A stretch of 64,000 nucleotides of DNA, taken from Streptomyces sp. NBC_00358. Lineage in GTDB: Bacteria > Actinomycetota > Actinomycetes > Streptomycetales > Streptomycetaceae. The position numbers and the translations under genes were made by a program. This document shows positions 55,113-62,291 of this stretch, piece after piece; position 1 is the stretch's first letter, and the number at the start of each line of letters is the position of its first letter. The stretch lies in NCBI RefSeq assembly GCF_036099295.1, contig NZ_CP107976.1:1116001-1180000 (forward strand), in the 5' to 3' direction. The notes beneath the pieces were generated by a model. That model was not told where the DNA came from. It saw only the letters and a list, made by a program, of their open reading frames with translations, and did not search any database.

Positions 55113-55565
55113 ATGCCCACTGCTCTCCGGCTCCTGCCCGCGCTCTCCCCCGAACACCGCGAACGGCTGATGGGCGTGGCCCGCGAGGTCTCCTTCCCCG
55201 CGGACGGGACGATCTTCGAGGCGGGCGGTACCGCCGACCGCTTCTGGGTGGTCCGCTCCGGAACGGTGTCCCTGTACCAACGGGTCATCGCCGAGAGACG
55301 GATCACCGTCGCCCAGCTCGGGCCCGGCGACCTGCTCGGCTGGTCGTGGCTGTTCCGCCCGCACACCTGGGACTTCGGCGCCGAGGCCTTCAGCCCGGTG
55401 CGCGCCTACGAGTTCGACGCCGGCGAGGTGCGGACCCTGTGCGACCAGGATCCGACGCTGGAGCTGTCGCTGACCCGGACGATCGGCGCGATCCTGGCCC
55501 ACCGGCTGGAGACGACCCGGGCGGCGCTCATCGATCACTACGCGCGCCACGGGGGCGGCGGCTGA
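55113..55565 (+). CDS. Cyclic nucleotide-binding domain protein without HTH
   Basis: A 150-residue protein that is only a CNMP-binding domain: LLPALSPEHRERLMGVAREVSFPADGTIFEAGGTADRFWVVRSGTVSLYQ, VAQLGPGDLLGWSWLF, and a dimerising helix. No DNA-binding helix-turn-helix follows, unlike Crp/Fnr. ATG 55113 has the ribosome site GGAGGT. The phosphate-binding cassette arginine is not obvious, so ligand binding is unsure. It may act as a partner to a kinase; similar domains are fused to the kinase gene at 60502. Confidence 0.82.
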   Translation: MPTALRLLPALSPEHRERLMGVAREVSFPADGTIFEAGGTADRFWVVRSGTVSLYQRVIAERRITVAQLGPGDLLGWSWLFRPHTWDFGAEAFSPVRAYEFDAGEVRTLCDQDPTLELSLTRTIGAILAHRLETTRAALIDHYARHGGGG

Positions 55566-57419: not shown

Positions 57420-58733
57420 ATGGCTTTTCAGATCAGCGCGACCAACCCGGAGCATCCCGCGCTCCTGCTCGAACTGCCGTGGCAACTCCCCCTGGAGGAG
57501 TGGCCCGAGCACCTTCTGGTGCCGCTGCCACGCGGCATCTCCCGGCACGTGGTGCGCTACGCGCGCGCCGGGGACGAGGTGGTGGCCGTCAAGGAGCTCG
57601 CCGAGCGGCCCGCGGTGCGCGAGTACGAGCTGCTGCTCGGCCTGGACCGGCTCGCGATCCCCGCGGTCGACCCTCTCGCCGTGGTCACCGGCCGCACGGA
57701 CGCGACGGGAGAGCCGCTGGAGTCGGTGCTGATCACCCGGCATCTGGGCGGCTCGCTGCCCTACCGGTCGATGTTCGAGACGACCATGCGGCCCGCCACC
57801 ATGCACCGGCTGATGGACGCGCTGGCCGTCCTGCTGGTGCGGCTGCACCTGGCCGGTTTCGCCTGGGGCGACTGCTCGCTGTCCAACACCCTGTTCCGGC
57901 GCGACGCGGGAGCGTACGCCGCGTACCTGGTGGACGCCGAGACCGGCGAGCTGCACCCACGGCTCAGCACCGGCCAGCGGGACTACGACCTGGATCTCGC
58001 CCGGGTGAACATCAGCGGCGAGCTGCTGGACCTGGAGGCGGCGGGCGCCCTGCATCCCTCGGTGGACCCGATCGAGTTCGGCCGGGAGATCTGCGCGCGC
58101 TACCGGGGCCTGTGGGAGGAGCTGACCCGCACCTCGGTCTACCCGGCGGGCAAGTACCACTACATCGACCGCCGGATACGCCGCCTCAACGACCTCGGCT
58201 TCGACGTCGCCGAGATGCAGATCGCGAGTTCCTCCAACGGCGACACCGTGACCTTCGTGCCCAAGGTCGTCGACGCGGGCCACCACCAGCGCCAGTTGCT
58301 GCGGCTGACCGGCCTCGACACCGAGGAGAACCAGGCCCGGCGGCTCCTGAACGACCTGGAGAGCTGGATGGCCACCCAGGACGACTACGCGCCGGGCGGC
58401 CGCCGGCCGGGCTCCCGGTCCGTCCCGGGCGGCGGACGGCCGCCCGCCGCCCGGCCGGAGGTGCTCGCCCACCGCTGGGTGCGGGACGTGTTCCGGCCCG
58501 CCGTCCGGGCGGTGCCCGTGGACCTGCGCGGCTCCATGGACCCGGCCGAGCTCTACCACGAGCTGCTCGAACACCGCTGGTTCCTGTCCGAGCGCGCCCA
58601 GCACGACATCGGCCTGGACGCTGCCGTCGAGGACTACGTCACGAACATCCTCCCCAAGGTCCGCGACCCGCTGCCGGCCCCCGCGGACGCGCCGGAGCCG
58701 TCCGGCGGCTACCCGGTTCCCGAGCAAAGGTGA
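57420..58733 (+). CDS. DUF4032 domain protein (kinase-like)
   Basis: A 437-residue soluble protein. The N-terminal half resembles a small-molecule or WaaP-like kinase: ISRHVVRYARAGDEVVAVKELAERPAVREYELLLGL (nucleotide-binding lysine and following glutamate), then LHLAGFAWGDCSLSNTLF, a catalytic-loop-like phrase with D and N, and AYLVDAETGEL in the place of DFG. DUF4032 lies at the C-terminal half (HYHYIDRRIRRLNDLGFDVAEMQIASSSNGD-like). ATG 57420 follows GAGGTGAGGG. Actual kinase activity is inferred. It is widely conserved in actinobacteria, function unknown. Confidence 0.85.
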   Translation: MAFQISATNPEHPALLLELPWQLPLEEWPEHLLVPLPRGISRHVVRYARAGDEVVAVKELAERPAVREYELLLGLDRLAIPAVDPLAVVTGRTDATGEPLESVLITRHLGGSLPYRSMFETTMRPATMHRLMDALAVLLVRLHLAGFAWGDCSLSNTLFRRDAGAYAAYLVDAETGELHPRLSTGQRDYDLDLARVNISGELLDLEAAGALHPSVDPIEFGREICARYRGLWEELTRTSVYPAGKYHYIDRRIRRLNDLGFDVAEMQIASSSNGDTVTFVPKVVDAGHHQRQLLRLTGLDTEENQARRLLNDLESWMATQDDYAPGGRRPGSRSVPGGGRPPAARPEVLAHRWVRDVFRPAVRAVPVDLRGSMDPAELYHELLEHRWFLSERAQHDIGLDAAVEDYVTNILPKVRDPLPAPADAPEPSGGYPVPEQR

Positions 58734-58736
58734 CCG

Positions 58737-58750
58737 ATCGTACATACGAT
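58737..58750. promoter_or_regulatory. Perfect palindrome before the receiver/flavoprotein operon
   Basis: ATCGTACATACGAT has 6-bp arms (ATCGTA/TACGAT) around CA. It lies 78 bp upstream of the operon's first start codon and 4 bp past the stop of the DUF4032 gene, a good place for an operator. Confidence 0.55.
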
Positions 58751-58828
58751 TGGCTGTGTACCTGCCGTGGGGTGCCTCGCGGTGCCGCTCGGCCGGAACG
58801 CAACTGACCTGCTCGGGGTGGGAGAGGT

Positions 58829-60505
58829 ATGACCCAGGCCGCCAGTCCGGCGCGGACCGTCATTCTGACCGTCGACGACGACCCCGGGGTGTCGCGCGCC
58901 GTCGCGCGGGACCTCAGACGCCGCTACGGCGAGGCGCACCGGATCGTGCGCGCCGAGTCCGGCGACGCGGCGCTGGAAGCCCTGCGCGAGCTGAAGCTGC
59001 GCGGCGACCAGGTGGCCGTGATCCTCGCCGACTACCGGATGCCGCAGATGAACGGCATCGAGTTCCTGGAGCAGGCCCTCGACGTGTATCCGGGCGCCCG
59101 CCGGGTGCTACTGACCGCGTACGCGGACACCAACGCGGCGATCGACGCGATCAACGTGATCGACCTCGACCACTACCTGCTCAAGCCCTGGGACCCGCCG
59201 GAGGAGAAGCTCTACCCGGTCGTCGACGATCTCCTGGACGCGTGGCGGGCCAGCGACTACCGGCCGGTCGGCGCCTGCAAGGTCGTCGGCCACCGGTGGT
59301 CGGCGCGTTCGTCGGGCGTCCGGGAGTTCCTGGCCCGCAACCAGGTGCCCTACCGGTGGTACTCGTCCGACACCCCCGAGGGACAGCGGCTGCTCAGCGC
59401 CGCGGGGCAGGACGGGGAGCGGCTGCCGCTGGTGGTCACCCCGGACGGCACTCCGCTCGTCGAGCCCGACGACCACGAGATCGCGGCGCACGTCGGGCTC
59501 GCCACGACGCCCACCTCGGAGTTCTACGACCTCGTCGTCATCGGCGGCGGACCCGCCGGGCTCGGGGCCGCCGTGTACGGCGCGTCCGAGGGGCTGCGCA
59601 CGGTGCTCGTGGAGCGGTCCGCGACCGGTGGACAGGCGGGCCAGAGTTCCCGGATCGAGAACTACCTCGGCTTCCCCGACGGCGTCTCCGGGGGGCAGCT
59701 CACCGACCGGGCGCGGCGGCAGGCGGCCAAGTTCGGCGCCGAGATACTCACCGCGCGTGAGGTGACCGGACTGGAGGTCACCGGGGCCTCGCGCACCATC
59801 CGCTTCTCCGACGGCTCCGCGATCTCCGCGCACGCGGTGATCCTCGCGACCGGTGTGTCGTACCGCCAGCTCCAGGCGCCCGGCCTGTCCGAGCTGACGG
59901 GCTGCGGCGTCTTCTACGGCTCGGCGCTCACCGAGGCGGCGGCCTGCCAGGGGCACGACGTGTACATCGTGGGCGGCGCGAACTCGGCCGGCCAGGCGGC
60001 GATGTACCTGGCCCGGGGCGCCAAGTCCGTCACCATCCTGGTGCGCGGCTCCTCGCTGTCCGCCTCGATGTCGCACTATCTGATCGAGCAGATCGGCGAC
60101 GCGCCGAACATCTCGGTGCGCACCGGCACGGTCGTGGAGTCCGCGCACGGCGACGGCCATCTGGAACAGCTGACCCTGCGCGATGTGCAGAGCGGCCACA
60201 CCGAACTCGTCGACGCGCAGTGGATGTTCGTGTTCATCGGCGCGGCCCCGCTCACCGACTGGCTGGAGGGCACCGTCCTCCGGGACGGCCGCGGATTCAT
60301 CGTCGCGGGCCCGGACATGACACCCGACGGGCAGCCGCCCCGCGGCTGGGAGCTGGACCGGCCCCCGTACCACCTGGAAACCAATGTGCCCGGCGTGTTC
60401 GTGGCCGGGGACGCGCGCGCCGAGTCGGCGAAGAGGGTCGCGTCCGCGGTCGGAGAGGGAGCCATGGCCGTCATGCTCGTCCACCGTTATCTGGAGCAGT
60501 CGTGA
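58829..60505 (+). CDS. Response-regulator/glutaredoxin-like/thioredoxin-reductase-like fusion
   Basis: A 558-residue three-part protein. A receiver (about 1-135) has the acidic pair D16-D17, phosphoacceptor D68 (ILADYRMP), T96 and K119. A thioredoxin-fold segment (about 148-228) resembles a glutaredoxin, but where the C-x2-C should be it reads SARSSG. A thioredoxin-reductase-like part (about 232-558) has the FAD motif GGGPAG (239-244), the NAD(P) motif IVGGANSAGQAAMYLARG and the flavin tail VPGVFVAGDARAESAKRVASAVGEG, but no C-x2-C in the middle (GCGVFYGS). Phosphorylation may control flavin redox. ATG 58829 has GGGAGAGG upstream. It overlaps the next gene (GTGA). Confidence 0.88.
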   Translation: MTQAASPARTVILTVDDDPGVSRAVARDLRRRYGEAHRIVRAESGDAALEALRELKLRGDQVAVILADYRMPQMNGIEFLEQALDVYPGARRVLLTAYADTNAAIDAINVIDLDHYLLKPWDPPEEKLYPVVDDLLDAWRASDYRPVGACKVVGHRWSARSSGVREFLARNQVPYRWYSSDTPEGQRLLSAAGQDGERLPLVVTPDGTPLVEPDDHEIAAHVGLATTPTSEFYDLVVIGGGPAGLGAAVYGASEGLRTVLVERSATGGQAGQSSRIENYLGFPDGVSGGQLTDRARRQAAKFGAEILTAREVTGLEVTGASRTIRFSDGSAISAHAVILATGVSYRQLQAPGLSELTGCGVFYGSALTEAAACQGHDVYIVGGANSAGQAAMYLARGAKSVTILVRGSSLSASMSHYLIEQIGDAPNISVRTGTVVESAHGDGHLEQLTLRDVQSGHTELVDAQWMFVFIGAAPLTDWLEGTVLRDGRGFIVAGPDMTPDGQPPRGWELDRPPYHLETNVPGVFVAGDARAESAKRVASAVGEGAMAVMLVHRYLEQS

Positions 60506-61944
60506 GCGGGCGGCCGGTGCCGTGCGACGCGGCGGAACTCAGCACGCTCTTCCTGTTCGAGAAACTCGACGACGACCAGTTGGACCGGCTGTGCCGGGAG
60601 GGCCGGACGGAGCAGTTCGACCCCGGGCCCGTGTACACCGAGGGCGATCCGGCCACCTGTTTCTACGTGCTCCTCGAAGGCACGGTGGTGATGTCGCGCC
60701 GGGTCGGCGCGGACGACGTGGAGATCAGCCGCACCTCGAAGCGCGGGGTGTACGCGGGCGCGATGCAGGCGTATCTCAGCGGTCCGGACGACGCCCGGTA
60801 CAAGGGGTCCATGCGGGTCACCGAGCTCTCGCGGTTCTTCGTCCTGCCCGCGGCGACGTTCTCCGCCATCCTGCGGGACTGGTTCCCGATGGCCGTCCAT
60901 CTGCTGGAGGGCATGTTCTTCGGCAGCCAGAACACCCAGCGGACCATCGGGCAGCGCGAGCGGCTGCTGGCACTCGGCTCGCTGTCCGCGGGGCTCACGC
61001 ACGAGCTCAACAACCCGGCCGCGGCGGCCGTGCGGGCCACCTCGGCGCTGCGCGACCGGGTGGCCCACATGCGGCAGAAACTGGGGGTGATCGCGTCGGG
61101 ACCGTACGCGCGCGACACGCTGGAGACGCTGGTGGAGATCCAGGAGCGGACCGCCGAGCAGGTCGCCAAGGCCACCCCGCTGACCCCGCTGGAGGCCTCC
61201 GACCGGGAGGACGCGCTCGCCGACTGGCTCGACGACCACGACATCGCGGGCGGCTGGCAGCTCGCCCCGACGTTCGTGCAGGCGGGACTCGACACCGACT
61301 GGCTGGACCAGGTCGCGGCGGCCGTGGACGGACCGACCCTGGAAGGCGCGGTCCGCTGGCTGAACTACACGGTCGAGACCGAGCTCCTGATGAACGAGAT
61401 CGAGGACTCCACCGGCCGTATCTCCCACCTCGTGGACGCGGCCAAGCAGTACTCGCAGCTCGACCGCGCGCCGTACCAGGTCGCCGACGTCCACGATCTG
61501 CTCGACAGCACGCTGATGATGCTCTCCGGGAAGATGGGCTCCGGGGTCAAGGTCGTCAAGGACTACGACCGTACGCTCGCCCGGATCCCCGCCTATCCCG
61601 GCGAGCTGAACCAGGTGTGGACGAACCTCATCGACAACGCGGTCGCGGCCATGGACAGGCAGGGGACGCTGACGGTGCGCACCGCGCTCGACGGCGACCA
61701 GGTGCTCGTCGAGTTCCGCGACACGGGTTCCGGGGTGCCCGCGGAGATCCGCGACCGGATCTTCGACCCGTTCTTCACCACCAAGGCGGTGGGCGAGGGC
61801 ACCGGTCTCGGCCTGGACATCTCCTGGCGGATCGTCGTCAACAAGCACCACGGGAGCCTGCAGGTGCAGTCCGTGCCCGGCGACACCCGCTTCCAGGTCC
61901 GCCTGCCCCTGACCGCCGCGGAGACCTCCGAGGAGCCTTCATGA
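60502..61944 (+). CDS. Cyclic nucleotide-binding sensor histidine kinase
   Basis: A 480-residue soluble kinase without membrane helices. A CNMP domain (about 10-140; [42 protein letters not shown]) precedes the kinase core. The phospho-histidine is in [19 protein letters not shown] box in [17 protein letters not shown]1 in [23 protein letters not shown] and G2 in [18 protein letters not shown] 60502 overlaps the stop of the receiver fusion. It is very likely the kinase for that receiver, forming a cytosolic pair that senses a nucleotide or related ligand. It overlaps the following zinc-finger gene (ATGA). Confidence 0.9.
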
Positions 61945-62291
61945 CCACGCCGAACGGAATCGACCCGTCCGTACCGCCGAGCGGCACCGGCTGCACCGAG
62001 TGCGACGCCGTCGGCGGCTGGTGGTTCCATCTGCGGCGCTGCGCCCAGTGCGGGCACATCGGCTGCTGCGACGACTCCCCGGCCAAGCACGCCACCGCGC
62101 ACGCGCGGAGCACCGGGCACCCGGTCATCCAGAGTTTCGAACCGGGCGAGAACTGGTTCTGGGACTTCGACACCTCCGAGCTGTACGAGTCCGGTCCCGA
62201 CCTCGCTCCCCCGGTGAGCCATCCGCTCGACCAGCCCGCTCCCGGCCCCGCGGGACGCGTTCCGGCGAACTGGGCCGAGACGCTGGGCTGA
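61941..62291 (+). CDS. UBP-type zinc finger protein
   Basis: A 116-residue protein. The zinc finger is [48 protein letters not shown] (cysteines and histidines as in the ZnF-UBP fold), followed by [11 protein letters not shown] and an acidic, proline-rich tail. In eukaryotes this fold binds the free C-terminus of ubiquitin; Streptomyces lacks the classical system but has Pup, and the bacterial role is unknown. ATG 61941 overlaps the kinase stop (ATGA), so three genes are coupled. It would complete the operon as a sensor or adaptor. Confidence 0.9.

Follow-up and report, generated by a model that had tools for sequence, protein, structure and literature searches.

The window analysed here, 64,000 nucleotides from a single 9,299,130-base contig of Streptomyces sp. 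NBC_00358 (NZ_CP107976.1), contains three plus-strand open reading frames (ORFs) at 58829-60505, 60502-61944 and 61941-62291. The first gene encodes a 558-amino-acid (aa) flavoprotein with a receiver domain, a thioredoxin (Trx)-like linker and a thioredoxin reductase (TrxR)-fold module; the second encodes a 480-aa histidine kinase, and the third a 116-aa protein with a UBP-type zinc finger (zf-UBP). A first-pass annotation, made from the letters alone, had noted both the four-base overlaps between the genes and the domains. The ORF coordinates bear out the former (GTGA at 60502-60505, ATGA at 61941-61944) and Pfam the latter (Response_reg with Pyr_redox_2, HATPase_c and zf-UBP, respectively); NCBIfam agrees with Pfam for genes 58829 and 60502 and has no model for gene 61941. 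The three overlapping genes form one cluster, likely a single operon. The analysis points to a system in which the kinase probably phosphorylates the receiver of a thiol-less flavoprotein and so likely controls the NAD(P)H/FAD chemistry of that protein. The zinc finger is likely an adaptor that connects the pair to a signal or to client proteins.

Gene order ties the kinase to the flavoprotein across distant bacteria. In a phylum sample of 149 genomes (thresholds of E ≤ 1e-55 for the flavoprotein, 1e-35 for the kinase and 1e-6 for UBP), the flavoprotein was detected in 34 genomes, the kinase in 18 and UBP in 32, and the flavoprotein adjoins the kinase in every kinase-bearing genome (18/18). 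For 19 of the 23 kinase matches the flavoprotein is no more than 100 bases away; of the rest, two are tandem copies (G130), one is an overlapping match (G141) and one is far away (G074). A kinase-profile scan of named genomes gave more than 590 loci, of which the best 80 were taken. Family kinases occur in 20 of these 80, and in 18 of the 20 the flavoprotein adjoins, in either gene order and across seven phyla; the exceptions are L127, cut by a contig end, and L119 (Chloroflexota), where the flavoprotein lies about 5.5 kb off. The family-kinase loci come from Actinomycetota, Pseudomonadota (Caballeronia humi) and Bacteroidota (e.g. Chitinophaga, Mucilaginibacter) and, through uncultured or metagenome assemblies only, from Gemmatimonadota, Acidobacteriota, Verrucomicrobiota, Cyanobacteriota and Chloroflexota; named records were assigned to phyla from their titles. 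The other 60 kinase loci gave no flavoprotein, linker or UBP match (tblastn E ≤ 1e-4, flanks up to 6 kb). By this conservation of gene order, the kinase and flavoprotein are shown to form one system. Adjacency was taken from tblastn or tool coordinates because gene calls in the retrieved loci came from a custom codon-position script that overlooks short and some long genes (e.g. the L075 flavoprotein); contig-end or fragment genes (L094, L127, L226, G149) were left out of counts or are named. One locus of G130 (L106, 5890-11889, minus strand) carries three family kinases in tandem behind a single receiver-flavoprotein.

For the zinc finger the same comparison is mixed, so that the single system first proposed for all three genes stands firmly for the kinase-flavoprotein pair and less evenly for its third member. 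Several distributions weigh against full membership. Of the 34 genomes in the phylum sample that have the flavoprotein, 9 carry UBP next to it or to its kinase; it is near 6 of the 20 family-kinase loci (L109-L112, L126 and L134, in the last about 1.9 kb beyond the flavoprotein) and absent beside most pairs outside Streptomyces; it occurs in 39 of 41 Streptomyces genomes, the flavoprotein in 25 of 41, and hence also without the system; and it is fused to (two proteins) or encoded beside (four proteins) Na+/H+ exchangers. The finger could on this account be an incidental operon passenger of a two-gene system, being common elsewhere and missing from most pairs outside Streptomyces. This is unlikely, given that in the 41 Streptomyces genomes UBP lies within 3 kb and on the same strand for 28 of 33 flavoprotein genes (33 of the 34 flavoprotein rows, a second G157 fragment being excluded, against 45 UBP rows, which are not all), that the link recurs in three flavoprotein subtypes with UBP either following the kinase or preceding the flavoprotein, and that in L048 the zf-UBP domain is the C-terminus of the family kinase itself. 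The five Streptomyces exceptions include G149, cut by a contig end, and G175, a kinase-linked pair with no UBP match on its contig; in the five exception genomes, the UBP rows left out of the count are located on different contigs or over 3 kb away. In the phylum sample, flavoprotein and UBP co-occur in 22 genomes against about 7 expected from the marginals (uncorrected for kinship or genome size), and the UBP label requires 11 changes on the flavoprotein tree, a rough figure in that the L224 and L225 flanks are only 1.5 kb. Judged by gene order, the zinc finger likely belongs to the same system as the kinase and flavoprotein.

The flavoprotein (58829..60505, plus strand; read from Pfam, NCBIfam, alignment and a structural model) is built of three parts. 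Its receiver (58829..59242, aa 1-138, with Response_reg at aa 12-124; Pfam and alignments) contains the acidic pair D16-D18, the predicted phospho-Asp D68 (59030-59032), T96 and K119. The linker (59243..59512, from model and alignment) has a glutaredoxin/thioredoxin-like fold in the AlphaFold model, strand-helix-strand-helix-strand-strand-helix, which is a match of secondary-structure order made with no separate fold search of the linker; WSARSS stands in place of WCPDC. The TrxR-fold FAD/NAD(P) module (59513..60502, aa 229-558, with the Pyr_redox_2 fold at aa 233-544) has GSAL in place of CxxC, together with conserved R406, M414-S415 and Y417-L418. The protein is thus a receiver fused to a TrxR fold. 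Its AlphaFold model (mean pLDDT 80.8) finds thioredoxin reductases and AhpF as best structural matches, and thioredoxin reductases are also its best sequence family matches (2.9e-43).

Absence of the redox cysteine pairs is a family trait. Both CxxC pairs are missing in 84 of 88 aligned flavoprotein rows (among the 84, L116 has a lone linker Cys and L226 is a fragment without a readable linker). Both pairs (linker WCxxC, TrxR-module FCATC) are kept in only four rows, which are 401-416 aa glutaredoxin (Grx)-TrxR fusions without a regulatory domain (L084 3774-4979, minus; L085 2675-3892, minus; L086 6605-7855, plus; L087 1753-2994, plus); the linker position of L085 matches Pfam Glutaredoxin. 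These fusions likely represent the pre-regulatory form, and we infer, as the simplest reading, that a Grx-TrxR fusion ancestor shed its thiol chemistry and gained a regulatory head, the direction of change following from a flavoprotein tree rooted by choice on the cysteine-bearing group. The head is a receiver or, in sister flavoproteins (six rows), a cyclic-nucleotide (cNMP) domain, a replacement as expected of a regulatory input. The missing dithiols, and a sister clade with degenerate receivers and linker, would also suit a scaffold without redox activity, whose receiver platform merely binds and sequesters its partners; we consider this quite unlikely, as the cofactor sites have not decayed. 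The FAD motif GGGPAGL and the NAD(P) motif GGANSAG are present and conserved in the flavoprotein, and the family forms (GxGP-[AS]-GL for FAD) are kept in the 64 cysteine-less rows counted, close Streptomyces copies being left out. The same rows share a new signature, R406 in 62/64, M414 in 63/64, and S415, Y417 and L418 in 64/64 each. With the cofactor motifs kept and new positions conserved, the protein is not an obvious pseudoenzyme, and the pattern suggests retained catalysis. The HRRxxxR motif, which binds the NADPH phosphate in thioredoxin reductases, is replaced by VRGSSLS, with one Arg kept.

The kinase (60502..61944, plus strand) combines a cNMP-like domain, a DHp domain with H167 (61000-61002) and a catalytic domain with N379 (61636-61638); Cys8 (60523-60525) lies near its N-terminus. 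Four predicted helices (aa 204-274, 61111..61323, plus strand; model and alignment) are inserted between the two long DHp helices. Pfam returns a strong HATPase_c, a sub-threshold HisKA and a weak cNMP_binding match (30.0 bits against a cut-off of 27.5), and the AlphaFold model (mean pLDDT 82.5, pTM 0.46) finds known kinases as its structural matches. The boxes expected of a working kinase (H167, N379, G409/G411, G433/G435/G437) are invariant in both 20-sequence kinase alignments. On the receiving side, the phosphorylation residues are invariant in 19 aligned flavoproteins from seven phyla, and D68, T96 and K119 are intact in 57 of 57 readable kinase-adjacent receivers (59 rows, L094 at a contig end and the fragment L226 being unreadable; 21 of the 57 are close Streptomyces copies), compared with 3 of 17 receivers without an adjacent family kinase. 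Phosphotransfer from H167 to the receiver is predicted from these residues.

Other observations count against the kinase arm of this reading. The correlation between intact receivers and adjacent kinases reduces to one loss on the tree (one change, for which the independent-pairs test cannot reach significance), so that the pattern is one contrast rather than many, and it was set aside as independent statistical evidence. Three near-identical Streptomyces paralogues (L228-L230) have an intact receiver and no family kinase adjoining; no kinase of another family was recognised among their neighbours in L233-L235, where the starts of the called genes were read and no profile scan was made. Not all members of the kinase family have an N-terminal Cys. 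The cNMP-like domain is weak: cNMP_binding passes its Pfam cut-off only marginally, and the phosphate-binding cassette of cNMP domains, of the pattern GE-x-AL...PR-x-A, is degenerate in the window kinase (...YKGSM); the L048 kinase has GEMALL...PRTASV. The marginal score and the degenerate cassette weaken the case for this domain as a cAMP sensor.

The receiver-flavoproteins that lack a kinase and have decayed phosphorylation sites form a clade (L064, L074-L079, L101-L105, L107 and L108). Directly after some of them lies a conserved protein of ~300 aa (L077 9574-10473, L079 9649-10563, L107 4779-5663), the L077 copy of which has no Pfam match. Single genomes hold up to six flavoprotein matches (G028, G042), other subtypes included.

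The zinc finger protein (61941..62291, plus strand) has putative zinc ligands at C18, C21, C34, C37, C42, H50, H54 and H60 and an extra, vicinal cysteine, C43 (62067-62069). Its Pfam zf-UBP match scores 49.9 bits, its Cys/His pattern is conserved, and its best protein match is 97% identical (Streptomyces sp. NBC_00328). The closest solved relative is PDB 2ida (E 1.4e-25), which we take to be RPA1320 of R. palustris; USP5 is distant. Both share the zf-UBP domain with the window protein, and C43 is near-invariant among the bacterial copies, being present in 46 of 47 domains (a set that includes at least one place twice, as L073 and L106 overlap). In USP5, the available part of the published analysis names W209, R221 and Y261 as critical for ubiquitin binding or activation and reports that R221K and Y261F weaken ubiquitin binding about 40-fold (PMC3247260). 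The alignment places Trp28, His39 and Phe76 of the window protein at these positions, and USP5 RRY corresponds to HIG. Across the 47 bacterial domains the W209 column is mostly W, the R221 column is His in 36, and the Y261 column holds 31 Tyr and 12 Phe.

The first-pass annotation had likened the finger to those that read the free end of ubiquitin, an idea that loses ground with two of the key residues altered. An extended form of it, in which the finger would recognise the free C-terminal ends of tags resembling ubiquitin, such as Pup, and the operon would monitor pools of tagged proteins, draws on the UBP fold, on Trp28 at the W209 position, on the aromatic residues of the Y261 column and on cousins that sit with dnaK, clpB and trx. 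It is improbable in view of the change of R221 and Y261 to His39 and Phe76, which weakens the case for ubiquitin and Pup reading alike, and of the finger's presence in one cyanobacterial and one Bacteroidota locus and on Na+/H+ exchangers. Pup in particular is unlikely as a general ligand, because the finger accompanies the pair in one cyanobacterial and one Bacteroidota record, groups that to our knowledge are without Pup. The copies on the C-terminus of Na+/H+ exchangers (L053 6354-8225, plus; L068 6360-8225, plus) or beside them (L046, L054, L066, L067) mark the finger as a portable module. An adaptor role is likely, a ubiquitin- or Pup-reading role unlikely. In L043 (7945-8290, plus strand) the zf-UBP gene matches in two reading frames, indicating a frameshift or sequencing error.

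A cousin of the operon provides a context for the zinc finger. In L045 (6326-15044, minus), L236 (249-9224, plus), L237 (7995-16931, minus) and L238 (7998-16886, minus), a dnaK-grpE-dnaJ-clpB-trx-UBP operon on one strand ends with a cNMP-type thiol-less flavoprotein, and this dnaK-clpB-trx-UBP association points to proteotoxic or redox stress. L081 has no UBP match, and its chaperone block converges on the flavoprotein; L057, L080, L239 and L240 have no chaperone block within the stretch examined.

Literature on Mycobacterium smegmatis may bear on the same question. MSMEG_1515 and MSMEG_1516 are very likely the kinase and flavoprotein homologues, an assignment based on their consecutive numbers, a ~60 kDa band for 1516 and agreement at Cys5, the family kinases of M. 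goodii and M. septicum having Cys at position 5. In the available part of one study, Cys5 of MSMEG_1515 appears in a table of hypochlorite-oxidised thiols (the meaning of the column being inferred), and 1515 is one of the regulators said to be more oxidised when mycothiol is missing through mutation (PMC5430705). The accessible portions of other reports list MSMEG_1516 as a ClpC1 interactor (PMC10433963), as co-precipitating with the toxic phage protein Wildcat gp145 (PMC7474061) and as under-represented upon VapC overexpression, and call it a thioredoxin reductase. The chaperone-operon cousins and this literature together favour a redox or proteotoxic stress circuit, and none of them proves it.

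In the mechanism proposed for the kinase-switched flavoprotein, kinase activity would change in response either to oxidation, sensed by way of the kinase's N-terminal Cys and cNMP-like domain, or to a different stress cue in the cytosol, and His167 would hand its phosphate to Asp68. The receiver would then shift the degenerate Trx-like linker relative to the FAD/NAD(P) domains and alter flavin turnover. Not thioredoxin but oxygen or a small acceptor would take up the flavin electrons. Going by the dnaK-clpB-trx-UBP-flavoprotein cousin, the zinc finger may link the module with damaged proteins or with the quality-control machinery. The earlier suggestion of a 'redox or nucleotide signalling' route is plausible. 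The reports on the likely M. smegmatis homologues favour its redox half, and the exchange of cNMP domain and receiver is in keeping with a regulated flavoprotein; the nucleotide half is weak, the cNMP-like domain of the kinase being degenerate. Only tentatively would we extend this to a widespread stress circuit, in which a former Grx-TrxR flavoprotein is switched by a kinase, the bacterial UBP finger, older than its ubiquitin-reading kin, couples the flavin switch to damaged proteins and to DnaK/ClpB/Trx, and redox and quality control share a sensor.

That gene 58829 encodes a true thioredoxin-disulfide reductase under two-component control is highly improbable: its best fold and sequence matches are thioredoxin reductases and a trx gene stands in the cNMP-type cousin operon, but its TIGR01292 score (NCBIfam, 214.9 bits) is below the cut-off of 343.45, and, as in 84 of the 88 rows, neither CxxC pair is there. 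Since it has no CxxC pair and this score is under the cut-off, the flavoprotein is, to judge from its sequence, not a thioredoxin reductase by the known dithiol route.

Comparison with known systems delimits what is shared. AhpF has thioredoxin-like folds in front of its TrxR part and is among the best structure matches; unlike AhpF and thioredoxin reductase, with which it shares the TrxR fold, the window flavoprotein has no CxxC in either domain and carries an extra receiver. TrxR-type ferredoxin-NADP+ oxidoreductases are examples of a TrxR fold that works without a dithiol; they are a much weaker sequence match (5.6e-19 vs 2.9e-43 for thioredoxin reductases) and have no receiver or kinase. 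The cNMP-TrxR flavoproteins of the dnaK-clpB-trx operons, for which we know of no name in the literature, share the linker-TrxR module without CxxC and have UBP adjoining, with a cNMP domain instead of the receiver and no family kinase beside them. A described REC-TrxR precedent has the same domain pair in one protein, a receiver with an enzymatic output domain; a kinase partner, cysteine loss, the linker and a UBP neighbour are not described in the available part of that paper (PMC5847659). No paper describing the three-gene operon was among the top full-text matches in the open-licence PMC literature, where the annotation phrases were also unmatched.

If the proposed reading is true, this two-component system would act by controlling flavin chemistry and not transcription. 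It would be spread over at least seven phyla, with its parts going by the labels 'thioredoxin reductase' and 'ATP-binding protein'. It would also offer a bacterial setting, as far as we know one without ubiquitin, for asking what the UBP zinc finger originally bound, and specific grounds for a second look at the likely M. smegmatis homologue, which the reports cited above call a thioredoxin reductase.

A conserved element, ATCGTACATACGAT, lies upstream of the operon (58737..58750, plus strand; motif scans), with the consensus ATCGWACATACGAT and the asymmetric core CGAACATACGATGG. It had been described as a perfect palindrome, which does not hold: it differs from its own reverse complement at 2 of 14 positions. 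With these mismatches and a left arm that is not conserved, a perfect-palindrome operator was rejected. The 17-base pattern ATCGWACATACGATNGG occurs in 12 of the 41 Streptomyces genomes, one copy each and all 12 upstream of a flavoprotein gene, and its reversed control pattern has no match in those 41 genomes. Allowing up to two mismatches within 220 bases upstream, ATCGAACATACGAT is found for 24 of 35 flavoprotein rows tested, comprising 24/24 rows of the main Streptomyces subtype (among which L207 repeats L043) and 0/11 rows of other subtypes or genera. By this conservation the site is a phylogenetic footprint, and it is likely the promoter or a regulator site of the operon. Because the left arm varies (CCCG, ACCG, TCCG) and CGAACATACGATGG is mostly kept, the element would act as a directional promoter element rather than a symmetric operator. 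Three relatives diverge from the window in the sequence preceding it, and the start of the three-gene unit is therefore likely at the 58737 element. The genome itself has one further site with one mismatch (C1:4410313), and the 3-kb locus around it has no match to the proteins of the operon.

Immediately upstream, a gene for a Kdo/WaaP-like kinase plus DUF4032 (57420-58733, plus strand) ends three bases before the element. Further upstream, the window encodes a lone 150-aa cNMP-binding-domain protein (55113-55565, plus strand), separated from the operon by three genes (55647, 56546 and 57420).

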